64,000 nucleotides of DNA from Stappia sp. 28M-7 (lineage in GTDB: Bacteria > Pseudomonadota > Alphaproteobacteria > Rhizobiales > Stappiaceae). The notes beneath the pieces were generated by a model. It ran no database searches and was not told the DNA's origin. It saw nothing but the letters and a program-made list of their open reading frames with translations. The DNA lies in assembly GCF_014252955.1 (NCBI RefSeq), contig NZ_JACMIA010000002.1:1-64000 (forward strand). Direction: 5' to 3'. Every line of letters begins with the position of its first letter. Positions within the stretch are counted from its first letter, which is position 1. Positions 4,543 through 21,859 of this stretch are shown piece by piece. The translations under genes and the position numbers were made by a program.

Positions 4543-6880
4543 GGGCTTTCTCCTTTCTGGATAGCGTGGCAAGCGCCACGGTGGCCTGGCCGAGCGACAG
4601 CCCGCCATCATTGGCCGGCACTTTCGAATGGCTGATCACGCGCAGGCCCGCGCCTTTCAGGCCATCCTCGACAAGCATGAACAAAGTGGCGTTCTGGAAA
4701 CAGCCGCCGGAAAGCGCGACCGTGTCGATCTCCGCATCGCTGGCGAGGCGCTTCGCCATGGCGACGATGGCTTTCGCCAGCCCCCGGTGGAAGCGTGCCG
4801 ACATGGTTCCGACCGGTGTCTTCAAAACGAGGTCGCCGAGCATGGCGCGCCACACGGCGAGCGGCTCGATATAGGGCAGCCCCCTGCCGCCCATCAGCGG
4901 GATCGCGAAGGGATAGGCGAGATCGTCGGGCTCGTTCAATGCGTCCGGGTCGAGGGCAGCCTCGAACAGCATCGCCGCCTCGCCTTCGTAGTTCTGCCGC
5001 TCCCAGCAAAGCCCGGTCAGCGCCGCCGCCGCGTCGAACAGCCGACCGCAAGACGACGACAGCGGCGCGTTGGTGGCGGAGTGGATCATCGCGTCCAGCG
5101 TGGCACGCGGCGCGGCGTCGAGCCTCGGGAAGACGTCGAGATTGCGGAAATTCATGGCGAACTCGGCCCAGCCCATCTCGGCCATGAGATGCGCATAAAG
5201 GTTGCGCCACGGCTCGCGCACCGCCGCCGCGCCGCCGGGAAGCGCAACCGGCTTCAGCAGGCCGAGGCGCTTGTAGCCATGATAGGTACAGGCAAGGAAC
5301 TCGCCGCCCCAGATCGTGCCGTCATCGCCGAGTCCGAGACCGTCCATGGCAATGCCGAGCACCGGGCCAGCGTCGAGCGGCAGGCCACTCTCGGCCATGC
5401 AGGCGGCAATGTGGGCGTGATGATGCTGGACCTCGATCACCGGACGCTCGCCGGCCATGTCGTAGCCCCGCTTGGTGGAGAGATATTCGGGATGCCGATC
5501 GACCGCGATGGCGGCCGGTTCATGCTCGAAGAGCTGCCGGTAGAGTGCCAGATTGTGCTCGACATCGGCATGGGTCGCGGCGTTTTCCAGATCGCCCATG
5601 TGCTGGCTCAGGATCGCCTGCCCGTTCTTGACGAGGCAGAACGTGTTCTTCAACTCCGAGCCGAGCGCCAGCAATTGCATGTCGCTGTCGAAGCCGTCGG
5701 GCAGCCGGATCGGTTGGGGCGCATAGCCGCGCGCGCGGCGCAGCAGGCGGGTCTTGCCGGCAACCACGCTTGCCACGCTGTCGTCGATACGGTTGGCGAT
5801 ATCGCGGTCATGGAACAGCGCAAAGTCAGCCACGTCCGACAGCGTATCGCGCACCTGATTGTTGGTGGTGCATTGCGGTTCGCCGGAAATGTTGCCGGAC
5901 GTCATGACCACCGGCCGCTTCATGCGGCGCAGCATCAGGTGATGCATCGGCGTGTAGGGCAGCATGAAGCCAAGCCGGCCAAGCCCCGGCGCGATGGCGT
6001 CGGGCAGCATTCCGGCCTTCGCCTCGAGCAGCACAATGGGCGCCGCCGGCGAGGTCAGCAGCGCTTCTTCGTCCGCGTTCACCTCGGCATAGCGGCGGAT
6101 GACATCGATATCGCGCGCCATCAGCGCGAACGCCTTGCCGCGCCGTCTCTTCCGCTCCCTCAAGCGGGCGACCACCTCGCCCTTCGTCGCGTCGCAGGCG
6201 AGATGGAAACCCCCAAGCCCTTTCACCGCGACGATATGGCCGTTCATGATCGCACCGCCGGCGGCGTCCACATCGTCCATCATTGAGAAGGCCTCGGCAT
6301 GCACCGCGCCGCCGCCGAGCTTTTCCAGCCAGGCTTTCGGTCCGCAAAGCGCACAGGCTACCGGCTGGGCATGGAAGCGCAGGTCGGCGGGATCGCCGTA
6401 TTCGGCCGCGCAGGTCTCGCACATGGGAAAGTCGCGCATCGTAGTCAGCGCGCGGTCATAGGGCGCGCCCTGAATGATCGAAAAGCGCGGGCCGCAATTG
6501 GTGCAGTTGGTGAACGCATACCAGTAGCGGTGGGCGAGCGGATTGCGCACCTCTTCCAGACAGTCCGGACAGGTCGCAGCGTCGGGCGTGACGTTCACCC
6601 GCATGCGCCCGCCCTGCGATTGCACGATGCCGAAACCATCCGGCGCGGGATCGCTGATCGGCGCCCGCTCCAGCGCCTCGATCTCCGCCAGCGCCGGAAG
6701 CTCGGCACGCAAACGGTCGACGAAGACGTCGCCTGCTTCGCCCCACAGGCGGATTTCCACGCCGTCGCCGGTGTTGCGCACGTCGCCGGCGAGGCCCATT
6801 TCCTGCGCCAGCCGCCAAACGGTCGGCCGGAAACCGACGCCCTGCACCTGCCCACGAATGGTAAGGCGCTCGCCGCTCAT
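4511..6880 (-). CDS. hypF: HypF carbamoyltransferase
   Basis: Makes the carbamoyl group for the CN ligands from carbamoyl phosphate and ATP and passes it to HypE. 789 residues with all expected parts in order: an acylphosphatase domain (GQVQGVGFRPT, residues 10-20), two zinc fingers (Cys104/107/126/129 and Cys154/157/176/179), a YrdC-like domain, and a C-terminal Kae1-like carbamoyltransferase domain containing the VQHHHAHIAA motif. The ATG at 6880 overlaps the NHL-protein stop (ATGA). A carbamate kinase gene at 49.3-50.2 kb could in principle affect carbamoyl phosphate supply, but that link is only an inference. Confidence 0.97.
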   Translation of the reverse strand: MSGERLTIRGQVQGVGFRPTVWRLAQEMGLAGDVRNTGDGVEIRLWGEAGDVFVDRLRAELPALAEIEALERAPISDPAPDGFGIVQSQGGRMRVNVTPDAATCPDCLEEVRNPLAHRYWYAFTNCTNCGPRFSIIQGAPYDRALTTMRDFPMCETCAAEYGDPADLRFHAQPVACALCGPKAWLEKLGGGAVHAEAFSMMDDVDAAGGAIMNGHIVAVKGLGGFHLACDATKGEVVARLRERKRRRGKAFALMARDIDVIRRYAEVNADEEALLTSPAAPIVLLEAKAGMLPDAIAPGLGRLGFMLPYTPMHHLMLRRMKRPVVMTSGNISGEPQCTTNNQVRDTLSDVADFALFHDRDIANRIDDSVASVVAGKTRLLRRARGYAPQPIRLPDGFDSDMQLLALGSELKNTFCLVKNGQAILSQHMGDLENAATHADVEHNLALYRQLFEHEPAAIAVDRHPEYLSTKRGYDMAGERPVIEVQHHHAHIAACMAESGLPLDAGPVLGIAMDGLGLGDDGTIWGGEFLACTYHGYKRLGLLKPVALPGGAAAVREPWRNLYAHLMAEMGWAEFAMNFRNLDVFPRLDAAPRATLDAMIHSATNAPLSSSCGRLFDAAAALTGLCWERQNYEGEAAMLFEAALDPDALNEPDDLAYPFAIPLMGGRGLPYIEPLAVWRAMLGDLVLKTPVGTMSARFHRGLAKAIVAMAKRLASDAEIDTVALSGGCFQNATLFMLVEDGLKGAGLRVISHSKVPANDGGLSLGQATVALATLSRKEKAHVSRDSRTDR

Positions 6881-8061
6881 CGCGCGACCTCCCACAACAG
6901 CACCCGGTTGTTGCCGCTGTCGGCGATGGCGACGAGGCCGCCCAGCACGCTCAAACCATAGGGCCAGCACAGGCTGTCGCGCGTCGCAACGCCCCAGCGA
7001 TTGTCGCCCTTGGCCGCGAAATCCGGTTGGCCGGTCAGCGCATCCGCCGCCGACCCGGTTTCCGGATCGCACCATCCGACCAGCCGCGAATTCGCCGTGT
7101 CGCCGACGATCAGCTGCCCGCCATGGCAGGCGAGCGCATAAGGCATGTTCAGCGTCCGGTTCGACGGATAATAGGCCGCGCCGTTGTGATCGCAGGCGGC
7201 AAAATCCGCTTGCCCGAGAACGGCGTCGCACGGTGCGCCGTTCGCCGCGGGGAACCCGTTCCAGATCGTGATGCGGTTGTTGCCAGCATCGGCGACGGCG
7301 AGGCGGCCCAGCCACGAGGCGATCTGATGCGGCCAGCGCATCGACATCGCCGACACCGCGCCGCCGGCATTCTCGTCGCGGTTCGTGAAGTCGGCCTGCC
7401 CGAGCACCAGGTCAGCGCCCTGTCCGCTTTCGCGCACATCGTTCCAGACCAGCAGACGGCGGTTGCCGGTGTCGCAGACCACCAGCCTGCCGTCGATCGC
7501 GGCCACGCCATAGGGCCAGTGCAGCGTCGTCGCCGTGGGCCGATCGGCACCTTCATTGGCCAGTACCGAGGCGAAATCCTTCTGGCCGAGCACAATGTCG
7601 GCCGGCTGGTTGTTTTCGGTCGGGGTCTCCAACCAGATCAGCACGCGGTGGTTCCAGGCGTCCGCGACGGCGAGCCCGTCGCGGAAAGCGCAGATGCCGG
7701 TCGGCACGTTAACGCTCGTCGCGCCGGGTTCCGCCTTACCGTTGCGCCCCTCTGCCTCAAATGTCGGCTGGCCGATCAATATATCAGCCGGCGCATTGTC
7801 CTCCACCGGCACCGCGCGCCAGCCGAGCAGGCGGTGATGGCCGGTATCGGCGACCCACAGCGAGCCGTCGGCGTGCAGGCACGCGCCGCGCGGGCCGAAC
7901 AGGGTCGATGCATCGGGACGGATGGAAACGGCGAAATCGTCCGGGCGCCAGCCGAGCACGGTGCGTGGTCCATCCGTGGCGAGTAGCGGACGCCCCTCGA
8001 CCGCCGACCCCGGCGCCTTGATCGGCGCGAAGCTGGAGGCATGGGCGAGCGAGGCTCTCAT
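6877..8061 (-). CDS. NHL-repeat beta-propeller protein of the hydrogenase locus
   Basis: 394-residue protein made almost wholly of NHL-type repeats. At least five units end in a G-Q-x-D/T-F signature (GQPTF, GQKDF, GQADF twice, GQPDF), each followed by a V-x-D-T/A-x-N/H-x-R-L/V-L/I-x-W strand, which predicts a beta-propeller. No signal peptide is seen. NHL-repeat genes are known neighbours of group 2a (Huc-type) hydrogenases. A scaffold or maturation role is inferred; no enzyme motif is visible. Start ATG overlaps the upstream NifU-Rieske stop (ATGA) and its own stop overlaps hypF. Confidence 0.85.
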   Translation of the reverse strand: MRASLAHASSFAPIKAPGSAVEGRPLLATDGPRTVLGWRPDDFAVSIRPDASTLFGPRGACLHADGSLWVADTGHHRLLGWRAVPVEDNAPADILIGQPTFEAEGRNGKAEPGATSVNVPTGICAFRDGLAVADAWNHRVLIWLETPTENNQPADIVLGQKDFASVLANEGADRPTATTLHWPYGVAAIDGRLVVCDTGNRRLLVWNDVRESGQGADLVLGQADFTNRDENAGGAVSAMSMRWPHQIASWLGRLAVADAGNNRITIWNGFPAANGAPCDAVLGQADFAACDHNGAAYYPSNRTLNMPYALACHGGQLIVGDTANSRLVGWCDPETGSAADALTGQPDFAAKGDNRWGVATRDSLCWPYGLSVLGGLVAIADSGNNRVLLWEVAR

Positions 8062-8978
8062 GACGTCAACTGCACTTCGATACGGTCGCCGACCACGCGC
8101 ACTCCATGCGGCTGAAGCTGCACTTCCGGCGCGGTCAGGCATTCGCCGCTTTCCAGCGAATATTCGAAACCGTGATAGGGACAGGTGATGCGGCCATCGG
8201 CGATGTCGCCGCCGTCCATGGCCATGCCCATATGGGCGCAGGCATTCTCGAAGATGGTGACACGGTCGGCAAAGCGCGTGACGAGCAGCGAATGCCCCCC
8301 CGCGTCCAGAACCTTCGTCTCGTCCTCGGCGAGATCACCGAGCTTGGCGACGAAACTCCAGCTATCGCTCTTGTAACTGGCGAATGGCGAGGTGAAATGC
8401 ACGGTGCCCGCGTCTCCGCCGCCGCCGAGCCCCCTTACCTGCCGAATCTCCTCGATCTCCGGCACATTGTCCTGGATGGCCTTCTTGACGCCAGCATAGA
8501 AAGTGAGCTGCGAGGCCGGGCAGCCGTCACATGCGCCGAGGAACCGCACCTCGCATGCCGGCGGCTCGACGGAGACGAGTTCCACGTCGCCGCCATGGCT
8601 GTCCAGCATAGGGCGAATGGTTTCAAGCGCTGCCTCGACCCGCTCGAACAGGCTCGGCTTGAGGATGCCGTGGCGGCGCAGCACGGCGTAAACCAGCTCG
8701 TCCGTCGCCGCTTCCCGGAGTGCCGGGCCGAGCGCTGGATGGCCTTTCAACTGGCGGATCAGGCGCCTGAAGCCTTCCGCGTTCAGTTGCTCGACGGCCT
8801 TGACGCGCGCATTGGCGGCGTTGCGTTGCTCGTCCGGCCAGTGTTCGGCCAGCGCTTCGAGAGCGGCAATGTCGGACAGCAGCGCGGCAAGGTTCCGCTC
8901 CTCGGCCTCCGCCGCGCCGGGCGGAGCGGAGATCGGGGCGGCATTCGCGACGCCTTTCTGGTCGGACATTTCGTTCAT
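8058..8978 (-). CDS. NifU-domain and Rieske-domain fusion protein
   Basis: 306 residues. Residues 1-110 are helical without a recognised family. Residues about 111-185 form an Nfu/NifU C-terminal domain with the cluster-binding pair Cys150 and Cys153 (CDGC). Residues about 205-306 form a ferredoxin-type Rieske domain with C247-x-H249 and C266-x2-H269. It can thus hold both a labile or [4Fe-4S] Nfu cluster and a [2Fe-2S] Rieske centre. Separate NifU-like and Rieske (HucE-type) proteins are known in Huc operons, so this fusion is a candidate electron acceptor or cluster donor for HupSL. No signal peptide, so cytosolic. It begins 5 bp after the preceding membrane-protein gene. Confidence 0.87.
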   Translation of the reverse strand: MNEMSDQKGVANAAPISAPPGAAEAEERNLAALLSDIAALEALAEHWPDEQRNAANARVKAVEQLNAEGFRRLIRQLKGHPALGPALREAATDELVYAVLRRHGILKPSLFERVEAALETIRPMLDSHGGDVELVSVEPPACEVRFLGACDGCPASQLTFYAGVKKAIQDNVPEIEEIRQVRGLGGGGDAGTVHFTSPFASYKSDSWSFVAKLGDLAEDETKVLDAGGHSLLVTRFADRVTIFENACAHMGMAMDGGDIADGRITCPYHGFEYSLESGECLTAPEVQLQPHGVRVVGDRIEVQLTS

Positions 8979-8983
8979 GGCGG

Positions 8984-9205
8984 TCAGACGTATTTGAGGT
9001 CCTTGAAGAGCACCGGCTGGGCAAGGCCCGAGACGGCTCCGCCGGCGAGTGCAGCGGCCCAGACGGGCAGGAACTGGCCGGCGATGACGATGACGATGGC
9101 CCCTAGCCCGGCGCCGAGCGCCAGCTTGCCCATCATCCTGGAATTGTCCTGGAAGAGCTTGCCCTGGAAGAACAGTTTCGCGGAATTCATGGCCATGCCG
9201 AGCAT
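8984..9205 (-). CDS. Small membrane protein of the hydrogenase operon (73 aa)
   Basis: No family recognised. 73 residues from the ATG at 9205, which overlaps the previous stop as TGATG. The N-terminus is amphipathic with Lys/Arg (MLGMAMNSAKLFF), followed by two Gly/Ala-rich hydrophobic stretches at about residues 27-43 and 46-60. The end is charged (FKDLKYV). It is one of a tandem pair of tiny membrane proteins between the TPR and NifU-Rieske genes, so it may anchor the otherwise soluble hydrogenase to the membrane. That role is inferred from position only. Confidence 0.72.
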   Translation of the reverse strand: MLGMAMNSAKLFFQGKLFQDNSRMMGKLALGAGLGAIVIVIAGQFLPVWAAALAGGAVSGLAQPVLFKDLKYV

Positions 9206-9411
9206 CAAAAGCCCCCCTTCACAACAGTGAGCAGGACGAGGCCCGCCACGACGCCGATAGAGCCGGCGAGGAAGCCGTAGAGCCCGCCCATATAGGCGGC
9301 GAGGTCCGCGCCAAGCGCCTCCGCGCCGATCTTCATGCCCGACAGGGCTCCGCCGGCAATGGCCGCGGCTATGCCGACCACGAGCGCGATGATGAGAGTG
9401 ATGATGTCCAT
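9205..9411 (-). CDS. Small Gly-rich membrane protein of the hydrogenase operon (68 aa)
   Basis: No family recognised. 68 residues with a hydrophobic segment at residues 3-22 (IITLIIALVVGIAAAIAGGA) and a second at about 44-64, separated by a short loop, giving a predicted membrane hairpin. Small-residue spacing (G-x3-G) suits helix packing. Start ATG at 9411 follows AAGGAAA. It is coupled to the next small membrane gene by TGATG and follows the TPR gene by 18 bp. A membrane-anchor role for the hydrogenase is an inference. Confidence 0.72.
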   Translation of the reverse strand: MDIITLIIALVVGIAAAIAGGALSGMKIGAEALGADLAAYMGGLYGFLAGSIGVVAGLVLLTVVKGGF

Positions 9412-9429: not shown

Positions 9430-10428
9430 TTAGTGGGCGCCATTGGCCTTCAAGGGCACTGATGGCAGGTCCTCTTCGAGTTCCCGCAAGGCCTCGCCAA
9501 CCGCTTCGGCCTTCTGCAAATCGCCCAGTTGGCGAAAGATGTCCCGCGCCTCACCATAGAGCGTCCAGGCAGCGGACAGATTGCGCGGATTTCCCTTGTC
9601 AGGCTCTTCCGGGTCGTCCGGCAGGTTGGCGAGGCAGTTGGCCTTGTTGGCGATGGTGTTGGCGTATTCGCCCGGTGCATTGCGGCGTTCGCGCACCTTC
9701 AGCGCCTCGTCATAGGCGTCCAGCGCGCGAAAGCCGTTCTCCACCCTGTGGCTCGACGAGACGTATTGCAGCGCGTTGCCGAGATTGTTCTGCAGCATGG
9801 CGTATTCGCTCGGATGGTCGATGAGAGTGACCACCGAAAGGCCTTCCTCGAATGCCTGGACGGCGAGCGCCTCGCGCATCTTCGCTTTCTCGTCGGTAAA
9901 CGGAATGGACAGGAAGGCCGTCGCGAGATTGTTTTGCAGGATCGCGAATTCCTTGGGATGAGCTTTCTTGTCGAAGGTCCGAAGCGCGCGCTGGTAGGCG
10001 CTGATGGAATCCTGGATGCGCGCCTTGTGGAAGGGGGCGAGGTTCTGCAGCACCAGCCCGAGGTTCATCTCCGCCTCGGCGATCTCCTCATCGCTTCCTT
10101 CCGCCGTGAGTGTGCCGAGCGCGGTTTCCAGTTCATCGCGCGCACGCTCCAGCGGCAGCGTGTCCTCGCTCGGAATGATCATCAGCGCCGTCGCCATGCG
10201 GGCGCGGATGCGCGCCGAAAGCAACGGCAGGTCTTTCACCTCGAGGCCGAGCGCCGTCTCGTAGAGCGTGACGGCGGCCTCGATGTCGGAGGCTTCCTTC
10301 GGCTTCTGCTGCAGGCTCATGGCGATCTCCATGAGCATCTCGGCCTTCTCGACGGGCGTGCCCTGCGCCTCCTCGACCATGCGCATGGCGACGTCGACCT
10401 GCTCTGGTGTGCGGCTGCGCACGGTCAT
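9430..10428 (-). CDS. TPR-repeat protein of the hydrogenase locus
   Basis: 332 residues, all-helical with tetratricopeptide-type repeats. The pattern L-Q-N-N-L-A/G-x-A recurs in the middle (FAILQNNLATAFL, YAMLQNNLGNALQ), and related helices flank it. No signal peptide. TPR genes neighbour group 2a hydrogenases, and a scaffold or assembly role is plausible. The ATG at 10428 was chosen for its GGGAGG site; the longer frame runs into the upstream hairpin. It is the first gene of a tightly packed unit that continues to hypB. Confidence 0.85.
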   Translation of the reverse strand: MTVRSRTPEQVDVAMRMVEEAQGTPVEKAEMLMEIAMSLQQKPKEASDIEAAVTLYETALGLEVKDLPLLSARIRARMATALMIIPSEDTLPLERARDELETALGTLTAEGSDEEIAEAEMNLGLVLQNLAPFHKARIQDSISAYQRALRTFDKKAHPKEFAILQNNLATAFLSIPFTDEKAKMREALAVQAFEEGLSVVTLIDHPSEYAMLQNNLGNALQYVSSSHRVENGFRALDAYDEALKVRERRNAPGEYANTIANKANCLANLPDDPEEPDKGNPRNLSAAWTLYGEARDIFRQLGDLQKAEAVGEALRELEEDLPSVPLKANGAH

Positions 10429-10536: not shown

Positions 10537-10551
10537 GGCTCAAATAGAGCC
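10537..10551 (-). terminator. Weak terminator-like hairpin after the 111-aa gene
   Basis: GGCTC / GAGCC with a 5-nt AT loop overlaps the stop codon of the preceding gene and is followed on the minus strand by TTATTTG. The stem is only 5 bp, so partial termination or attenuation is all that can be claimed. Confidence 0.3.
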
Positions 10552-10875
10552 ATTTTTCTTCTGAAAATCCGGATACTCAGGAAGCGGAACGACCAGGGCG
10601 CCCTGCTCGCTCGACCACGATGCCGGCAGGTCCAGCGCCTGCCATGCAAGCAGATCGTTGGCCTCGAAAACGTCCGGCGCGCTTGCGACCCGGTCGCCGG
10701 CGGCATTGCGCATCTTCAGCAGGCATCCCCCGGCGGCCATCTGGTGGACCGGCAGAATGTTCACCGCACCGTCGCGAATGAGGACGATCACCGCCTCAAT
10801 GCCGCGGAAGTAGGTTTCGACGACGGACGCCGACAGATAGACCGAGCCGTTCCTGACAGCGACGGTAGCGCTCAT
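10540..10875 (-). CDS. Unknown 111-aa protein at the end of the hupSL unit
   Basis: No family recognised. 111 residues, no signal peptide and no clear membrane segment. The pattern of beta-strands (VYLSASVVETYF, EAVIVLIRDGAVNILPV) suggests a small alpha/beta domain; one cysteine in AAGGCLLKM. The ATG overlaps the protease-gene stop (ATGA at 10872-10875), so it is translated with the hydrogenase protease and belongs to the hupSL transcript. Its co-translation suggests a hydrogenase maturation or structural role, not shown by the sequence. Confidence 0.7.
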   Translation of the reverse strand: MSATVAVRNGSVYLSASVVETYFRGIEAVIVLIRDGAVNILPVHQMAAGGCLLKMRNAAGDRVASAPDVFEANDLLAWQALDLPASWSSEQGALVVPLPEYPDFQKKNGSI

Positions 10876-11357
10876 GATGCCGTCGCCGGTTTGGGCGCGA
10901 CCAGTGATGCGATCTGCTCCGCCAGCCGGTTCGCCGCCGCCTCCACGGCTGGCGAAAGACCGAGGCCGAGCGCCAGGCTCTCGGCTTCGACGAGGAAGAC
11001 CGAAACGTCGCCCGGAAACGCCGCGCCATAGATCATGCGCCCGGCATAGAGCGCGTTCTCCCAGCGGAAATCGTGGAGGTTCAGGCTGTGCTGCGGCGGT
11101 GCCTGCAGGATGTCGCCCGGCACCCGGTAGATCGCGCCTGGATTGCCTTCGGGAACCTTCGCATCGACGATGATCAGCCGTTCCACGCCGCGCGCCTGGT
11201 ACATGACGGCCATGCCATCCGTGCCCGCGTCGAAGACGGCGACGCCCGGCGGCAGATTCACATCGCGCAGTCTGGCGGCAACCGCCGGCCCCAGCCCGTC
11301 GTCTGAGCGGTTTGGGTTGCCGCAGCCGATAATCGCGGTGCGAACCGCCACGCTCAT
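10872..11357 (-). CDS. hupD: Hydrogenase maturation endopeptidase (HupD/HyaD type)
   Basis: Nickel-dependent endopeptidase that removes the C-terminal tail of the large subunit after metal insertion. 161 residues from the ATG at 11357. The family start IIGCGNPNRSDDGLG carries the first acidic nickel ligand, then FDAGTDGM the second, and LNLHDF the histidine. The substrate HupL has a 16-residue tail after His516, matching this need. The ATG overlaps the stop of the preceding cysteine-motif gene (ATGA at 11354-11357), which decides the start; longer in-frame starts lie inside that gene. Confidence 0.92.
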   Translation of the reverse strand: MSVAVRTAIIGCGNPNRSDDGLGPAVAARLRDVNLPPGVAVFDAGTDGMAVMYQARGVERLIIVDAKVPEGNPGAIYRVPGDILQAPPQHSLNLHDFRWENALYAGRMIYGAAFPGDVSVFLVEAESLALGLGLSPAVEAAANRLAEQIASLVAPKPATAS

Positions 11358-11686
11358 ATCCGCCACAGCCTGCACGACCATTGCGGCTCGACGGGAAGCA
11401 TGAGCTCCGGCAGGGCGCAGAAGCGGCGATGCATGAGATAGTACATGCAGGTCTCGCATGGCTGCTCGAGGTCGTCGGCCTCCACGGTGTAATCGGTGAA
11501 CCCGGCGATCACGAGCTTTTGGGTCAGGTCGTCACCCGCATCCTTTTGCAGGCGCGCCACGATCTCGTTCACCATCTGCGATGTCTCAGCACGCGGCCAG
11601 ACTTCCGTCTCTAGCCCGCCCGCCAGCATCGCGCCGATGTCCTCGCGCAACCTGTCGTCCTGCGCGCTCGATGCCTGATCGTCCAT
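11354..11686 (-). CDS. Four-cysteine protein B of the hydrogenase operon
   Basis: No named family recognised. 110 residues from the ATG at 11686, which has a strong GGGAGGAAG site. The C-terminus carries CETCMYYLMHRRFC and ends SCRLWRI, so four cysteines: a CxxC pair, one about 13 residues later and one near the end. It is clearly a paralogue of the preceding gene (shared GLET-x-V region and the whole C-terminal block). The cysteine set suggests a zinc or Fe-S site. Soluble, no signal peptide. Position between hupL and the protease gene points to a hydrogenase-specific role. Confidence 0.75.
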   Translation of the reverse strand: MDDQASSAQDDRLREDIGAMLAGGLETEVWPRAETSQMVNEIVARLQKDAGDDLTQKLVIAGFTDYTVEADDLEQPCETCMYYLMHRRFCALPELMLPVEPQWSCRLWRI

Positions 11687-11737
11687 GTCGCTTCCTCCCT
11701 GGCAAACACACTTGATCGGCCGCAAATCAGAGAGTGT

Positions 11738-12115
11738 CTAAATCCTCCACAAACGGCACCACCAGTCGGGCTCCGCCGGCAGGTCGAGCTCCGGCAGGTC
11801 GCACCAGCGTTTGTGGACGAGGTAGTACATGCACTCCTGACAGCGCATTTCCTCTTCCCCATAGGGCTCCAGCAACCAGCCCGATTCGATCAGCTTGGCG
11901 CGCAGTTCGTTCTTCCCCATGGCCCGCAGATCGTCGAGAATGCGCCCGAATTCCCTGTCGGTCTCGGGAAATGGCTCAACCTTGGTTTCCAGTCCCTCCT
12001 CGAAGAGGTCCTTGATCATCTCGAGAAGCGTCGCATGGTCGGCCTTTTCCGGGGTCACCCCATAGCGCGCTAAAAAATCGGCTTCGGATCTGCCCACGCC
12101 GGGTTGTTCAACCAT
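11738..12115 (-). CDS. Four-cysteine protein A of the hydrogenase operon
   Basis: No named family recognised. 125 residues from the ATG at 12115, after AAGGAAG. The N-terminal part is helical and acidic; the C-terminus has CQECMYYLVHKRWC, then LPELDLPAEP and a final CRLWRI. It is the paralogue of the next gene, with identical cysteine spacing. It is separated from hupL by 115 bp. It could be a metal-binding partner or small electron-transfer protein of the hydrogenase, but the fold cannot be named from sequence. Confidence 0.75.
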   Translation of the reverse strand: MVEQPGVGRSEADFLARYGVTPEKADHATLLEMIKDLFEEGLETKVEPFPETDREFGRILDDLRAMGKNELRAKLIESGWLLEPYGEEEMRCQECMYYLVHKRWCDLPELDLPAEPDWWCRLWRI

Positions 12116-12230: not shown

Positions 12231-13829
12231 TCAGGATGTCCTGAAGCGGGCGAGTTCCTCGCCGGACTTCGCATCGTGGGCGTGCACCGTGCAGACCAGG
12301 CAACTGTCATAGGACCGGCACACATGGCCGACCTCGACAGGGTCCTTCGGATTGGCGATCGGGGTGCCGATCAGCGCCTCCTCGATCGGGCCGCGTTCGC
12401 CGTCGGCCGCCCTCGGTCCGACGTTCCATGTGGTCGGCGCGATGATCTGGTAGTTCTTGATCTTGCCGCCCTCCACGTCGATCCAGTGGCACAGCGCACC
12501 GCGGATCGCCTCGGTCGCACCCCATCCCCGGCCATCCTTCTCGGTCGGCTTGATGTACCACTCCTCATTGAGCTTCATCTCGCGCAGGTTGCGCTCGGCT
12601 TCGCGGTAGAGGATGCACAGTTCGTGCATGCGCGCGAAATGGCGCAGCAGGATCGAGGCACCGCCCATCTTGCGGTACATGTCGAGCACCAGACCGTCGG
12701 AGTGCTGGAAGTCCTGGCCGGGACCGCCCGCGACCAGACGCCTTGCGAGCGGACCGGCCTCCAGGCGGCCGTTTTCCTCGTGGCGCACGGCCGTGCACCA
12801 GGAATACTTGCCGTCCGGGTCGATGTCGTTCTTCGACACCGGCGTGGTGGTCCGGTCGAAGGGATGCAGCGAATTGCCTTCGTCATACCAGGCGTGCTGC
12901 ATGTCCTCGCGGGTGTGGATCTGGTCCATCAGCTTGAAGCTGTCGGACGCACCGTCGTAAACACCCGATTTCATGATCACCGCGTCATTGCGCCCTGCAA
13001 TGGTCGGCTTCTGGTAGCGGTCCTCATGCGGCAGGTAGCCCCAGGTCACGAACTTGCCGTGGCCCTTGCCATAGTTCTGCAGGCCGATATCCATGCCCAT
13101 GCGCCAGTAGAGACCAAGGTCGGAATTGGCGTGTTCGGGTCGCTCGTCGAGCCATTCGAGGAACTGGTCGTAGGTCTGAATCTCCTCGTAGCGCTCCATC
13201 GAACAGCCGAGCCACAGCGGCTCGATCCAGTTGCGGCGGAAATGCTCCAGGATCGACCAGGCGCGGGTCACGTCGGTCAGCGTCGGCGCGCACATCACAC
13301 CGCCCGGAACCATGTAGGAGGAGTGCGGCCACTGGCCGCCGAGCAATGCGTAGATCTCGACCGGACGGCCAGAGATGGTCACGCCGGCCTCGTAGCTGGT
13401 CCCGGTAAACGGCGAATAGCGCTTCACCGCCTCCTCGTAGAACTGACTGCCCGAATAGTTCTTGTTGGTCGCGTCGATCATGAACAGGCCGTAGTGATGG
13501 CGCGGGAGCGACTGCATCGATTCCACGATCTGTCCGAGATTGCGGGCGATGATCGCATTGCGCGGCACCGTCGTACCCCAGGCGGTGTCAAGCGCCCAGG
13601 CGGCGCAGGTGAGGTGCGAGGCGCCGCATATGCCGCAGGCGCGCGGCGTGACGACGAGACCCGCCTGCGGGTCCTTGTCTTTGAGGATCACTTCGAAACC
13701 GCGGAACATCTCCGCGTTCGTCCATGCGTTGACGACGACGCCGTTCTCGATGTCGACGCGGACGTCGAGGTCGCCCTCCACGCGGCCGACCGGTGAGATA
13801 TCGAGTGTCTGAACTGCTGCTTGTGACAT
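12231..13829 (-). CDS. hupL: [NiFe] uptake hydrogenase large subunit, group 2a type
   Basis: Catalytic subunit that oxidises H2 at the NiFe centre. 532 residues, the length usual for group 2a (cyanobacterial HupL, mycobacterial HucL). Nickel ligands are Cys65 and Cys68 (RACGIC) and Cys510 and Cys513 (DSCLVC), with His516 marking the processing site; the 16 residues after it are the tail cut by the protease. RVEGD (residues 16-20) is the conserved L0 region. The start has GGAGAAA upstream. It follows hupS by 27 bp. The group was assigned by overall resemblance, subunit lengths and accessory genes, not by a computed tree. Confidence 0.95.
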   Translation of the reverse strand: MSQAAVQTLDISPVGRVEGDLDVRVDIENGVVVNAWTNAEMFRGFEVILKDKDPQAGLVVTPRACGICGASHLTCAAWALDTAWGTTVPRNAIIARNLGQIVESMQSLPRHHYGLFMIDATNKNYSGSQFYEEAVKRYSPFTGTSYEAGVTISGRPVEIYALLGGQWPHSSYMVPGGVMCAPTLTDVTRAWSILEHFRRNWIEPLWLGCSMERYEEIQTYDQFLEWLDERPEHANSDLGLYWRMGMDIGLQNYGKGHGKFVTWGYLPHEDRYQKPTIAGRNDAVIMKSGVYDGASDSFKLMDQIHTREDMQHAWYDEGNSLHPFDRTTTPVSKNDIDPDGKYSWCTAVRHEENGRLEAGPLARRLVAGGPGQDFQHSDGLVLDMYRKMGGASILLRHFARMHELCILYREAERNLREMKLNEEWYIKPTEKDGRGWGATEAIRGALCHWIDVEGGKIKNYQIIAPTTWNVGPRAADGERGPIEEALIGTPIANPKDPVEVGHVCRSYDSCLVCTVHAHDAKSGEELARFRTS

Positions 13830-13856: not shown

Positions 13857-14819
13857 TCAGACCACGAAGATGTCTTCTTCGGCCCAGGCGGGCGCGGCCC
13901 CCTTGGCGGCGGCGGTCAGCTTGACGTAGCCCTTCTTGTCGACGCCTTCCGGCAGGTCCTTCGGCACGCCCATGACGGTTTGGGTCTTGAAGACCGTGCC
14001 TGGCGCGAGGTCAAAGAACGGGAACTCCGGCTCGGTGCAGCCGAGACACGGCATGCCGGCGCGGGTCTTGGAGGAGACGCGGTTCCAAAGGATGCGGTTG
14101 CACGGGCTGTGGGTCATGGGACCGCGGCAACCAAGATCGTAGAACAGGCAGCCCTTGCGCTGGCCGAACGCCGTGGTCGAGACCTTGTAGGCGAAGTGCA
14201 TGTTGCGCGTGCAGCCGGTCTGGGTGAACGACGAGAAGAACGTCTTGGGGCGCTGGAACTCGTCGAGCGTGAGATCGCCCGCCCGGCCGGTGGCCACCGC
14301 CACGAGAATCTGCGTCACCCAGTCGGGATGCGCGGGGCAGCCGGGAATGTTGATCACCGGCAGACCGGCCTTCGACACGAAGCCGCCGCCGAGCGCGCCG
14401 CCCTTGGCGCGTTTCAGGAACTGAAGGCCCTGGCTTTCCGACGGGTTCGGCGCGGTCGCCGGAATGCCGCCCCAGGTGGCGCAATCGCCGATGGCGACCA
14501 CAAACTGCGCGGCGGCGGCAAGCTTCTGGACCCAGTTCTTCATCGGCTCGCCGCAGAAGCGGTTCCACTCGCCAGTGCCGTTGGGCGCGTTGATGACCGT
14601 TCCTTCAAAAACGAAAATATCGAGCTGGATTTCGCCCGATATACATTTCTCCAGAATCGCCTTCACGTCGTCACCCAGTTCCAGGCCGAGTGACGGCTGC
14701 CAAAGAACGTTGATGCCAAAATCCGTCACCAGATCGCAGGCACTTGGTTCTTCCGCATTGAGAAAGGACATGGTGTTGCCGGAACAGGCACCACCTTGCA
14801 GCCACAGCAAGTTGGCCAT
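13857..14819 (-). CDS. hupS: [NiFe] uptake hydrogenase small subunit, group 2a type
   Basis: Electron-transfer subunit with three Fe-S clusters. 320 residues, no Tat signal peptide, so cytosolic, as in cyanobacterial HupS. The N-terminus (WLQGGACSGNTMSF) matches that type. The proximal cluster has Cys12, Cys113 and Cys161, but the usual second cysteine of CxxC is Asn15. The distal site has Cys203, Cys224 and Cys230 with Gln200 where group 1 proteins have His. The medial site has Cys240, Cys258 and Cys261. These changes fit the all-[3Fe-4S] set reported for Huc. First gene of the sigma-54 transcript; GGGAGG site upstream. Confidence 0.95.
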   Translation of the reverse strand: MANLLWLQGGACSGNTMSFLNAEEPSACDLVTDFGINVLWQPSLGLELGDDVKAILEKCISGEIQLDIFVFEGTVINAPNGTGEWNRFCGEPMKNWVQKLAAAAQFVVAIGDCATWGGIPATAPNPSESQGLQFLKRAKGGALGGGFVSKAGLPVINIPGCPAHPDWVTQILVAVATGRAGDLTLDEFQRPKTFFSSFTQTGCTRNMHFAYKVSTTAFGQRKGCLFYDLGCRGPMTHSPCNRILWNRVSSKTRAGMPCLGCTEPEFPFFDLAPGTVFKTQTVMGVPKDLPEGVDKKGYVKLTAAAKGAAPAWAEEDIFVV

Positions 14820-15078: not shown

Positions 15079-15297
15079 TCAGCCGTGCCTGTTGCCGCAT
15101 TTCGGGCATTCGGCTTCCAGGAAGTAGGAATACCATATCCCCTGGCAGTAGCTGCACCAGTGGCCTCGCGCGCTGCGCCCGGACGAGCCGACCTGCTGCG
15201 AGAGCTTGCTGAGGCCGAGATCGTTGATCGGCCCGCTCGATTTCATGCGCACGCGCGTTTGCGGAAAACGCAGGATCTCAGCCTTTTCGTCATCCAT
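15079..15297 (-). CDS. Small zinc-ribbon protein downstream of the hydrogenase regulator
   Basis: 72 residues, no named family recognised. The C-terminal half has two CxxC knuckles, CSYC and CPKC, 16 residues apart, typical of a zinc ribbon (or rubredoxin-like iron site). The N-terminal half is basic and polar. Its ATG lies 21 bp after the regulator stop, so it is probably co-transcribed with it. A role as accessory regulator or hydrogenase partner is possible; the sequence shows only the metal knuckles. Confidence 0.72.
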   Translation of the reverse strand: MDDEKAEILRFPQTRVRMKSSGPINDLGLSKLSQQVGSSGRSARGHWCSYCQGIWYSYFLEAECPKCGNRHG

Positions 15298-15318: not shown

Positions 15319-16767
15319 TTATGCGACATCCTGCAGGTTATACCGCTTGATCTTGTTGGCAAGTCCGACGCGCGACAGCCCGAGTTCGTCGGCTGCCTTG
15401 CTCTGGTTCCAGCGGTGGCGGGTAAGCGTTTCCATCACCACCCGTTTTTCAAGCGACTCAACCATTTCCTTGAGCGTATCACCCTCGATCGCGTAAGCGC
15501 CGTCGCCGGCGGGCGGCTCCACGCTGACATCGGCGATGTTGCGCGGCAGATGCCGCCGGGAAATATAACCGCCCTGCTCGGCAAGCGCGACCATGCGGCG
15601 GATTTCCGCCTCGAGTTCGCGCACATTGCCGGGGAACTGGTAAGCTCTCAGCTTGGCGATCACATCCTTGGTAACACCGACCACGCGCCGGCCGACCACG
15701 CCTGCATATTTCTCGATGAAGAAATCGGTCAGCACCGGGATATCTTCGGGCCGTTCGCGCAGCGCTGGAATATGCAGTTCGAACCCTTTGAGTCGGTAGT
15801 AAAGGTCGCGGCGGAATTCGCCCTTCTCGACCAATTCGGCGAGCGGCCTGTTATAGGCCGCCAGCACCCGCACATTGGCATGATACATCTTGTCGGACCC
15901 GAGCGGCTTGACCTCACCTTCCTGAAGGAACCGCAGCAGGCTGACCTGAAAGCTCGGCGATATCTCCGTCAGTTCGTCCAGGAACACGGTGCCTCCGTCG
16001 GCGGCGCGGAACAGGCCGAGACGATCGGCCACCGCGCCCGTGAAAGCGCCGCGCACATGGCCGAACAGTTCCGAATGCAGCATGTCCTGGGACATGCCGC
16101 CACAGTTCTGGACGTAGAGCGGCGTATCCATGCGACCGGAATTATAGTGGATCGCGCGGGCGAGAAGCTCCTTGCCGGTTCCCGTCTCGCCGAATATCAG
16201 CACTGGCAGATCGGTTGCCGCGGCCTGCTTCGCCTCCGCCACCAGTTCCGCCATGGCGGGACTGACATAGACCAGACGCTCGAATTGGGAGACCCCGCCC
16301 TTGAGCGAACTCTGCTCGGCCTCGTCGAAGATGTTGTCGTCGACGGAAATCTTCAGTTCGCGCGACAGCACCCGGTGACGTCGCGACAGTTCGTTGAGTT
16401 CGAGCGCTCGCTTGGCCGTCAGTTCGACCTGCTCGCAAAACACCGGCTTGAGAACGAACAGGAAAGCCGCCGCGTTACGCGCCACCTGCGCTGCAAGGGC
16501 GTGGGCGTCTTGCGCACCCAGCACGATGCGCGCAACCTGCGGATGCGACAGCCGCGCGCTGGTGACGAGATTATTAGCGGCATCCGTGCCGGCCGGAACG
16601 TCATAGATCAGCAGGTGAACCTGCATGGAATCGAGCCGGCGCGCCGCCTCCTTATCGTCGGCGCACACGACAACGCGATAATCCTCTGACTTCGCGAGAC
16701 CCTGTTGGCATTGGGCGATCAGGGCCTCGTCCGCCGACACGACAATGACGGTATGCTCGGTGGTCAT
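15319..16767 (-). CDS. hupR: NtrC-family sigma-54 activator, HupR/HoxA type
   Basis: Response-regulator activator of sigma-54 promoters, here most likely for hupSL. 482 residues: a receiver domain (about 1-120, with the candidate phospho-site Asp in LLIYDVPAG), an AAA+ domain with Walker A GETGTGKE, the sigma-54 contact loop GAFTGA and Walker B GTVFLDE, and a C-terminal Fis-type helix-turn-helix (NQSKAADELGLSRVGLANKI). HoxA/HupR proteins can activate without phosphorylation. No sensor kinase gene is in the window. The symbol follows function; hoxA is equally apt. Start has GGGAGGAA upstream. Confidence 0.92.
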   Translation of the reverse strand: MTTEHTVIVVSADEALIAQCQQGLAKSEDYRVVVCADDKEAARRLDSMQVHLLIYDVPAGTDAANNLVTSARLSHPQVARIVLGAQDAHALAAQVARNAAAFLFVLKPVFCEQVELTAKRALELNELSRRHRVLSRELKISVDDNIFDEAEQSSLKGGVSQFERLVYVSPAMAELVAEAKQAAATDLPVLIFGETGTGKELLARAIHYNSGRMDTPLYVQNCGGMSQDMLHSELFGHVRGAFTGAVADRLGLFRAADGGTVFLDELTEISPSFQVSLLRFLQEGEVKPLGSDKMYHANVRVLAAYNRPLAELVEKGEFRRDLYYRLKGFELHIPALRERPEDIPVLTDFFIEKYAGVVGRRVVGVTKDVIAKLRAYQFPGNVRELEAEIRRMVALAEQGGYISRRHLPRNIADVSVEPPAGDGAYAIEGDTLKEMVESLEKRVVMETLTRHRWNQSKAADELGLSRVGLANKIKRYNLQDVA

Positions 16768-17371: not shown

Positions 17372-17956
17372 TCAAAGCCAGTAGATGACGATGGCCGCAA
17401 GAGCGATAGCTGACAGGAAGACCTTTGGGCACCTGTCGTAACGTGTCGCCACACGCCGCCAGTCTTTGAGCCTGCCAAACATGATCTCGATGCGGTTGCG
17501 CCGTTTATAGCGACGCTTGTCGTATTTCACCGGTTTCGTCCGCTGTTTCCGGCCAGGGATGCAGGCGCGTATCCCTTTGTCTTTCAATGCTTCTCGGAAC
17601 CAATCGGCGTCATATCCTCGATCTCCGAGGAGCCATTCCACCTTTGGCAAACTGCTCACCAAAGCACGAGCACCGATGTAATCGCTGACCTGACCGGCGG
17701 TGACGAAGAGGTTGAGCGGTCGGCCCTGGCTGTCGCAGATGGCGTGCAGTTTGGTATTCATGCCGCCTTTGGTTCGACCGATCAGGCGTCCACGCCCCCC
17801 CTTTTTCACCGCAAGGCTGGACGCCGTGCGATGGGCTTTGAGATAGGTCGCGTCGATCATGACCGTCTTCTCTTCACCATGATCAGCGGCCAGACCAGCC
17901 ATAATCCGAGCGAAGATTCCCCTATCGCTCCACCGTTTCCAACGGTTGTAGAGCGT
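17372..17956 (-). pseudogene. IS5-family transposase, C-terminal part
   Basis: DDE transposase fragment. It carries the catalytic part with IDATYLKAHR (first Asp), LLGDRGYDAD (second Asp) and RIEIMFGRLKDWRR (Glu). Upstream the frame LYNRWKRWSDRGIFARI continues to the IS110 insertion. Like related elements it was probably made by a frameshift from two overlapping frames (the second begins MAGLAADHGEEK near 17902). The N-terminal part is at 21948-22122, so it cannot be made intact now. Confidence 0.88.
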
Positions 17957-18176
17957 TCTCTGATTGCGGCCTTGTCAAGCGTGGGAAGTTGATGTCCGTC
18001 CGGGGTCATGGTTCTCTCCGAGGTCGCATTGAGCGCCTCATGATGGTTTTCGGCGGCGGATCGTCTCCAATGTCTTGTGCGGGGTGTGGCTCTGGCCATC
18101 CCATGCTCTACAGCGAGATCGATCAACCTCCGTCCCGTCGGGACTGCGCTCCCCGCGTCAGACGCGAGAACTCAGA
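17957..18176 (-). ncRNA. IS110 3' non-coding end, candidate seekRNA/bridge RNA region
   Basis: About 220 bp after the transposase stop contain no gene but belong to the element. IS110-family elements are known to encode a guide RNA in a non-coding end, downstream of the transposase in the IS1111 subgroup. The 88-bp upstream end is too short, so this side is the likelier place. Sequence includes GC-rich inverted segments (for example CTGACGCGGGG near 18150). The RNA is inferred, not seen. Confidence 0.45.
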
Positions 18177-18419
18177 TCAGGCGGTGGCCTCCTTTGTCCA
18201 TTGATAGTCAGTTCCATTTTTCCAGAGCGTCAGCATAAGCACTGCGATTTTGCGAGCCGTCACGACGGCCGCCTTGCGGAAGCCACGCCGTCCCGCCAGT
18301 CGTACAGCCCAGCTTTTCAGCCGCGAGAAACGTTTCACCTGATGGATCACGGATGACGCCGCCTCGAACAGTAGCCCGCGCATCGCACCGTCACCGCATT
18401 TCGAAACGCGCCCCGACCA
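18177..18419 (-). pseudogene. IS110-family transposase, C-terminal fragment
   Basis: The frame after the IS21 insertion reads WSGRVSKCGDGAMRGLLFEA and continues with HQVKRFSRLKSWAVRLA to the stop at 18177. This is the Tnp_20 (IS116/IS110/IS902) domain with its serine region. It joins exactly to the N-terminal part at 21055-21859 when IS21 and one 8-bp copy are removed. Confidence 0.88.
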
Positions 18420-18548
18420 ATGTAGCGCGACAATCTGGATGAGAGTAGCGCGTCAATCAGGATGAGAATCCTTGGTCGCGACAGCAGCGAGGATGGCGGG
18501 TTTGTCTGTCGCGGGCAAGGGGCTTGTCGCAGTGATTGTCGCGGAGCG

Positions 18549-20974
<2,426 letters not shown>

Positions 20975-21054
20975 CTACGCCCTCCCTACAAGGCCCCACC
21001 CCCGCGTTCTCATCCTGATTGACGCTGGAGTCTCACCCTGTTTGTCGCGCCGCA

Positions 21055-21859
21055 CCGACCAATCCATTTCGCCGGACTGATGTCGCTTTGGCGTTAACCC
21101 AAGAAAAGCGCCCACATCCGACGTCCGGTTGAACCGACCCGGATCATCAACCAGTGCTATGAAGCTGAGCGCGTTGACCGGACCAACACCGGGGATTGTC
21201 ATCAGGCGGCGCGCGACTGGATGGACCTTGGCCGTTTTCCTCACCACCTTGTCCAAGTCGTCCGCCACTTGGCACAACTTGGCATGGGTAGCGATGAAGG
21301 CATCAGCTATGACCCGCAAAACCTGGTCGGTCTCGCCCGCTGCTGCCAGCTGATCGCGGAACGCTTGCCTCTGCCGTCCCTGGCCAATGCCGATCATACG
21401 GATGCCGAAGGTTTTGAGGACGCCACGAATGTGACCTTCGAGGTCCTTGCGCAACCGGATCAACCGTTCCCGCGCGCCTACCAAGCTGCGAAGCCGGTCC
21501 GCCTCCTCGCTGCGGATGTGAACCGGTGTGAACCAACCGGTGCGCGCAAGCTGTGCCAGACCTTCAGCGTCGGCGGCATCCGACTTGTTGAGCCGCGCCG
21601 ACAAGCTCTTGTGTGCCTTCCGGGCATCAATGCAGGTCGCAGGCAGGCCGAGACCTGCGAGGCCGCGCTGCAACCAGATCGATAGCATTCCGCTTTCATG
21701 CACGATCCGTCGGGGCGTAAGTTCGCGGTTGCGAAACCAACCCGCGACGCCCCCGGGATCAGCGGGACAGACGCCACGCGCTACAGTCTTGCCATCCCTG
21801 TCTACAACGCAGATCGAAATCTCTTTCAGCGACACATCCAAACCGACATAGTATTCCAT
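21055..21859 (-). pseudogene. IS110-family transposase, N-terminal fragment
   Basis: DEDD transposase beginning MEYYVGLDVSLKE (first Asp), with DAADAEGLAQLA and the IPGVGPVNALSF helix-hairpin-helix-like region. It is cut after SGEMDWS by the IS21 insertion at 21055; beyond that, the frame runs on into IS21 sequence. The missing C-terminus is at 18177-18419. Confidence 0.9.

Follow-up and report, generated by a model that had tools for sequence, protein, structure and literature searches.

In mycobacteria, the route by which electrons travel from a group 2a hydrogenase into respiration has been worked out (PMC10017518); its course in the Proteobacteria, among them H2-oxidising soil, marine and symbiotic species, is the question here. 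A group 2a [NiFe]-hydrogenase operon on the minus strand of the window (the whole stretch of 64,000 nucleotides from Stappia sp. 28M-7 analysed here) bears on this question, with the gene order hupS-hupL-B-A-hupD, in which B and A each encode a small four-cysteine protein. What do these two proteins contribute to the hydrogenase? The first-pass annotation had proposed a heteromeric metal-site pair, acting either as an electron relay or as an assembly factor. Much of what follows concerns their likeness to HiPIPs, the high-potential [4Fe-4S] electron carriers usually located outside the cytoplasm. The features of the locus are as follows.

15319..16767, minus strand: sigma-54-dependent regulator (HupR-like), upstream of hupS (Pfam Sigma54_activat, E 6.1e-61)
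13857..14819, minus strand: hupS/hucS, group 2a small subunit (Pfam; closest PDB chain HucS 7uur_D, E 3.1e-157)
12231..13829, minus strand: hupL/hucL, group 2a large subunit (Pfam NiFeSe_Hases, E 1.8e-76)
12115..11738, minus strand: gene B (P0002), first paralogue after hupL, a four-cysteine protein of 125 aa (ORF and translation)
11741..11842, minus strand: predicted HiPIP-like C-terminal domain of B, residues 92-125, Cys92/95/105/120 (hhalign, HiPIP HMM ranking, VIA-align of the AF2 model)
11686..11354, minus strand: gene A (P0001), second paralogue, a four-cysteine protein of 110 aa (ORF and translation)
11357..11458, minus strand: predicted HiPIP-like C-terminal domain of A, residues 77-110, Cys77/80/90/105 (VIA-align of the AF2 model)
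10872..11357, minus strand: hupD-type hydrogenase maturation protease (TIGR00072, E 2e-37)
9430..10428, minus strand: TPR-like protein (weak Pfam TPR matches; position kept in most loci)
9411..9205 and 9208..8984, minus strand: two small proteins, putatively in the membrane, encoded between the TPR-like and HucE-like proteins (hydrophobic stretches)
8058..8978, minus strand: HucE-like protein with NifU and Rieske [2Fe-2S] domains (Pfam NifU, E 2.5e-22; Rieske, E 7.6e-16)
6877..8142, minus strand: NHL-repeat protein (Pfam NHL, E 2e-27)
after the NHL gene, minus strand: hypF, hypC and hypD (names from homologous loci and sequence recognition)

The associated enzyme belongs to group 2a (Huc/HupSL), its subunits being closest to Huc and its operon containing HucE-like and NHL genes; HupL is 53-55% identical to its homologues from Mycobacterium, Thermus, Sulfobacillus, Runella and Hymenobacter. 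Since HupS begins directly at the mature fold, the hydrogenase is read from its sequence as probably cytoplasmic, like A and B themselves. The latter lack a hydrophobic export signal: the maximum Kyte-Doolittle value over 15 residues within the first 45 aa has a mean of 0.48 for B and 0.43 for A, versus 1.3-2.2 for genuine HiPIP precursors, many of which have a Tat-type motif.

The position of the two genes would also suit a role in maturation, in which A and B would serve as HiPIP-fold scaffolds or chaperones on pre-HupS or pre-HupL and, in the presence of air, aid the insertion or protection of iron-sulfur clusters, a role like that of the rubredoxin-related factor for aerobic maturation in Ralstonia. 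They are flanked by hupL and the maturation protease gene, further maturation genes follow downstream, the stop codon of A overlaps the start of hupD (ATGA), suggesting coupled translation, and small cysteine proteins in hydrogenase operons are often maturation factors, the rubredoxin-related case being cited in PMC6883350. However, in other phyla the HupSL genes are followed by the same set of genes without A or B, and the predicted fold points to an electron-transfer class, so that such an assembly function is possible but on the unlikely side.

Several other features of the neighbourhood deserve mention. A 72-aa CxxC...CxxC protein (CSYCQG...CPKCGN; 15079-15297, minus strand), without a Pfam match, lies between the regulator and hupS; it occupies the same position in no fewer than about 40 of the loci that contain both A and B, and the five non-proteobacterial group 2a loci lack it. 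After the protease comes a conserved 111-aa protein of unknown function (10540-10875, minus strand) without a Pfam or NCBIfam match, whose relatives are found at the same position in most proteobacterial group 2a loci. The two small proteins at 9205-9411 and 8984-9208 (minus strand) could form a membrane link, and in Nostoc a comparable stretch holds asr0689 and asr0690, with two TM regions each. In a Porticoccaceae MAG (L085), the HucE and TPR genes are located upstream on the opposite strand, while hupSL-B-A-hupD is intact. Finally, a transposase run (DDE transposase, IS21 IstB/IstA-like, IS110) is found just upstream of the hydrogenase operon at 17372-21859 (minus strand), and related operons reside on conjugative or mobilizable plasmids in Roseovarius, Octadecabacter and Sphingopyxis, which together suggest horizontal transfer.

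Alignment of A with B gave 42% identity over 98 residues (E 5e-24), far beyond chance, confirming the earlier observation that the two are paralogues. Both minus-strand genes are present where the first-pass annotation had placed them, and the common block and the terminal CRLWRI that it described are real, with an identical cysteine spacing of C-x2-C-x9-C-x14-C in the two proteins. Their N-terminal halves, described there as diverged, are indeed more diverged than the rest but still homologous (GLxTxVxPxxE...) rather than unrelated. Across the family, the C-terminal stretch of about 35 residues reads C-x2-C-[MI]-Y-[YF]-...-C-x-[LI]-P-E-...-W-x-C-x-L-W and is conserved up to the last residue. 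The four-cysteine pattern is intact in 165 of 168 family sequences (a few redundant records included), the exceptions being a Cys to Arg change in one MAG (L046 A) and two sequences with an unreadable base. The histidine is invariant in 54 B sequences (alignment A2) and about 90% conserved in A. No convincing third copy was found in the own genome. Elsewhere, a highly diverged A paralogue that keeps all four cysteines (CDNCIYFLARREWC...YCDLWRV; L077:8182-8580, plus strand) is located next to an ordinary B.

A tree of 103 sequences separates A from B by one branch (support 100/100), consistent with a single early duplication, and B is the more constrained of the two, with a mean column identity of 64% versus 52% for A. 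The side-by-side arrangement of the genes in 74 of 80 loci and the separate clade formed by each would agree with an obligate heterodimer sharing one metal site. Yet each protein has a complete set of four cysteines, and Methylocapsa-type operons and one Rhodocyclaceae operon contain B but no A. We therefore doubt an obligate A-B heteromer and rejected it as the default, the shared site being very improbable, and the heteromeric pairing in the original proposal is correspondingly weakened. The three Methylocapsa-type loci without A cluster together in the tree (100/98), suggesting that A was lost there; L090, which also has B only, is a separate case.

Is the family tied to this hydrogenase? 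A GTDB scan with one genome per species returned 161 relatives, from which the best 80 loci were kept, a choice by closeness that could under-represent members located elsewhere than beside hydrogenases. In 79 of the 80, HupL immediately precedes the family; the remaining locus (L090) starts at a contig edge. Both paralogues are present in 74 loci and B only in four (L072, L076, L090 and L091), while in L018 and L040 the contig runs out after B. By title, 79 of the 80 loci are from Pseudomonadota, and the exception is a Nitrospira MAG (L068) that may have been mis-binned. The Parvularcula sp. MAG NAT21 has two distinct group 2a operons (L014, PAIP01000045.1, and L038, PAIP01000062.1), both with an A/B pair of their own, and the B of L014 is 98% identical to that of the window.

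Broader samples agree with this picture. Among 289 Alphaproteobacteria, the family is convincing in two genomes (G000 and G266), and group 2a HupL was found in exactly those two; two weaker matches (E 0.001-0.006) lie in long, unrelated-looking frames. HupL adjoins the family in all four genomes of a phylum sample that have it. In the class of G513 (369 genomes), four have a group 2a HupL, each with the A/B pair beside it, and in the class of G491 the sole group 2a HupL match was G491 itself. No relative of A or B at a meaningful score was detected in the plasmid-borne group 2a operons of Mycobacterium intracellulare, Thermus, Sulfobacillus, Runella or Hymenobacter, and in these five non-proteobacterial operons the protease directly follows HupL. 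In the Nostoc operon, hupSL and hyp are separated by five ORFs, and judging by their description none is A/B-like (PMC2408588). From the scans and the absence in the five genera, we therefore regard the family as a feature of the proteobacterial group 2a clade, a clade already set apart in PMC7784904 with Acidithiobacillus ferrooxidans included. The proposed check, whether the block lies next to group 2a hydrogenases, thus holds in every locus where the neighbourhood is visible, only within that clade.

Direct sequence searches of Pfam, NCBIfam and the PDB gave no family match for A or B. DUF2284, DUF3381 and SSO0352 were rejected as relatives, their weak matches being at chance level, and DUF1641 is absent from the Pfam scans of both proteins. 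With a single CxxC, no second knuckle and no matching profile, A and B do not look like zinc-ribbon or rubredoxin-like Cys4 proteins. At E ≤ 1, single-sequence Pfam scans likewise yielded no match to the HiPIP family PF01355 in any of 54 B and 45 A sequences, and nothing in the own genome matched it at E ≤ 0.01. It is at the profile level that a relation emerges, the C-terminal 35 or so residues resembling the cluster-binding part of HiPIPs such as PioC (CGTCRQFRPPSSCITVESPISENGWCRLYAGK). Against 33 HiPIPs, hhalign gave a probability of 49-73% for A or B alone and 82-88% for the two combined, with the cysteines aligned. Five control families of the same operons, three of them with cysteine-based metal sites, gave 0.1-1.1% (1.1% with the neighbouring Cys4 ribbon-like family and 0.6% with HypA), and control families tested against HiPIP stayed under 3%. 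The observed score of 29.9 lies above all shuffles, 200 of each kind (z 5.8-8.3 for the kinds with cysteines in place); shuffling within segments only, with cysteines in place, reached a maximum of 22.0 (z 5.8). When an unfiltered HiPIP HMM was run over the 13,886 ORFs of the loci, the A/B family took ranks 1-28 and 38 of the top 40, with single E-values of 0.008 or worse. In the reverse search of 1,137 ORFs, three HiPIPs came first (best E 1.9e-5).

The predicted structures point the same way. AlphaFold2 models built without templates, from family sequences only, reached a pLDDT of 88.7 for B and 95.3 for A. With VIA-align, six of 40 chains passed Z 2 for the B model, all six HiPIPs (Z 2.7-4.1); for the A model 11 of 98 chains passed, and the nine listed entries are all HiPIPs (Z 3.2-5.5). 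The best match of the A model had Z 5.5 and 2.6 Å over 63 residues, and its superposition on 1isu gave 2.0 Å over 52 of the 62 residues of the latter. Across the A and B matches the rmsd is 2.0-3.8 Å, every Z being below 8 and the models being predictions. Foldseek returned no match at E ≤ 0.001 for either model; a HiPIP (3h31) leads at E 0.19, for A only. With Z short of 8, a Foldseek result that is weak by itself and models that are predicted, we call the domain "HiPIP-like" and not a proven HiPIP. Taken together, profiles and predicted folds strongly support a cysteine metal site in A and B, as originally suggested, and narrow it to a probable HiPIP-like [4Fe-4S] domain.

How these proteins relate to quinone delivery is the next point. 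In mycobacterial Huc, menaquinone is reduced directly in HucS, and HucM (MSMEG_2261) forms the quinone-channel stalk (PMC10017518). As the HucM counterpart of Mycobacterium intracellulare we take the DUF1641 gene that lies upstream of hucS; apparent DUF1641 counterparts are located close to hucS in the loci of Mycobacterium, Thermus and Sulfobacillus. DUF1641 was not convincingly found in the loci with A and B (best match E 0.004, in an unrelated long ORF), and its best place in the own genome was below the cut-off (E 0.209). That the family occurs where HucM/DUF1641 is missing could mean that the four cysteines bind zinc, as a Cys4 pattern also could, and that A and B are structural adaptors replacing HucM and docking HupSL to the membrane or a partner; the C-terminus, conserved to its last residue, would resemble an interaction tail. 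We consider this rather improbable, since both profile and fold go to HiPIP instead of the Cys4 ribbon-like control or HypA, and the aromatic residues after Cys2 and Cys4 are HiPIP-style. Nor did we adopt a strict replacement of HucM by A and B: Runella and Hymenobacter also have no annotated DUF1641 near hupSL, and the menaquinone-contact residues Lys212, Tyr229 and Tyr301 of Huc correspond to K212, Y227 and Y298 in HupS, all three kept, so that direct quinone reduction may persist.

Since the domain appears HiPIP-related, A and B are good candidates for carrying electrons from H2, and of the two functions first suggested our choice leans to the relay. We give an about even chance to their being cytoplasmic HiPIP-like electron carriers of the proteobacterial group 2a hydrogenase. 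In such a relay, a helical N-terminal part would be followed by the domain of about 35 residues whose four cysteines would hold a cubane [4Fe-4S] cluster. The proteins would dock on HupSL, most likely close to where electrons leave the iron-sulfur chain of HupS, and might pass H2-derived electrons to the quinone pool or to HucE, the Rieske/NifU protein. The core carrier would be B, and A a faster-evolving duplicate adding a second site or specificity. We count in favour of the relay the HiPIP relation (hhalign, HMM ranking and AF2/VIA-align), the tie to HupL, the lack of a hydrophobic export signal, the failure to find DUF1641/HucM, and the proposal of a putative HiPIP in A. ferrooxidans (PMC7735108). 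Against it stand the retained menaquinone-contact residues of HupS, the presence of HucE, itself an acceptor candidate, and the non-proteobacterial group 2a enzymes that do without A and B; against the HiPIP reading stand the silent Pfam scans, the weak Foldseek result, Z values below 8 and the change of the GWC glycine to Trp. The bolder version, in which a dedicated cytoplasmic HiPIP pair is the electron outlet of proteobacterial atmospheric-H2-type hydrogenases and replaces HucM-dependent quinone delivery, is unlikely as it stands; if true, it would place a periplasmic-carrier fold in the cytoplasm and answer where Hup electrons go.

One putative HiPIP beside one hup operon, that of A. ferrooxidans, had already been noted (PMC7735108). 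The A/B family, its two-paralogue structure, its proteobacterial restriction and the fold evidence appear to have no description in the open papers searched. An operon-locked, conserved HiPIP-like pair is a specific and testable candidate for the electron route in Proteobacteria, and if A and B do carry a cluster, they would bring the HiPIP fold into the cytoplasm and represent a family without a Pfam entry.

Compared with known HiPIPs, A and B share the order and rough spacing of the four cysteines (C-x2-C-x8-C-x12-C in PioC versus C-x2-C-x9-C-x14-C), the aromatic residues after Cys2 and at Cys4+3, and the WCRLY of the minimal HiPIP PioC (WWCRLW in A and B); the AF2 models also predict a HiPIP-like fold. 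They differ in lacking an export signal and a Pfam match, in their long N-terminal helical part and in being encoded in a hydrogenase operon. In addition, the Gly of the GWC/GYC motif at the last Cys, present throughout the HiPIP set, is replaced by an invariant Trp (W118 in B, W103 in A). A further close parallel is DN052_04130 of A. ferrooxidans, a putative HiPIP encoded near the group 2a hupLS and raised during anaerobic growth on H2, where it or the Rieske protein was proposed to link the cytoplasmic Hup to ubiquinone (PMC7735108). That study concerns one protein in one species and describes no family, pair or fold; judging from position only, DN052_04130 may be orthologous to B or A. HucE, which is required for H2 oxidation in M. 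smegmatis and was proposed as electron acceptor (PMC6883350), is likewise an iron-sulfur protein of the same operon, but has no sequence relation to A and B and is also present in operons without them. HucM resembles A and B in being an additional small subunit that is restricted to some of the group 2a enzymes, but it is unrelated to them in sequence and was not found in the loci that have A and B.
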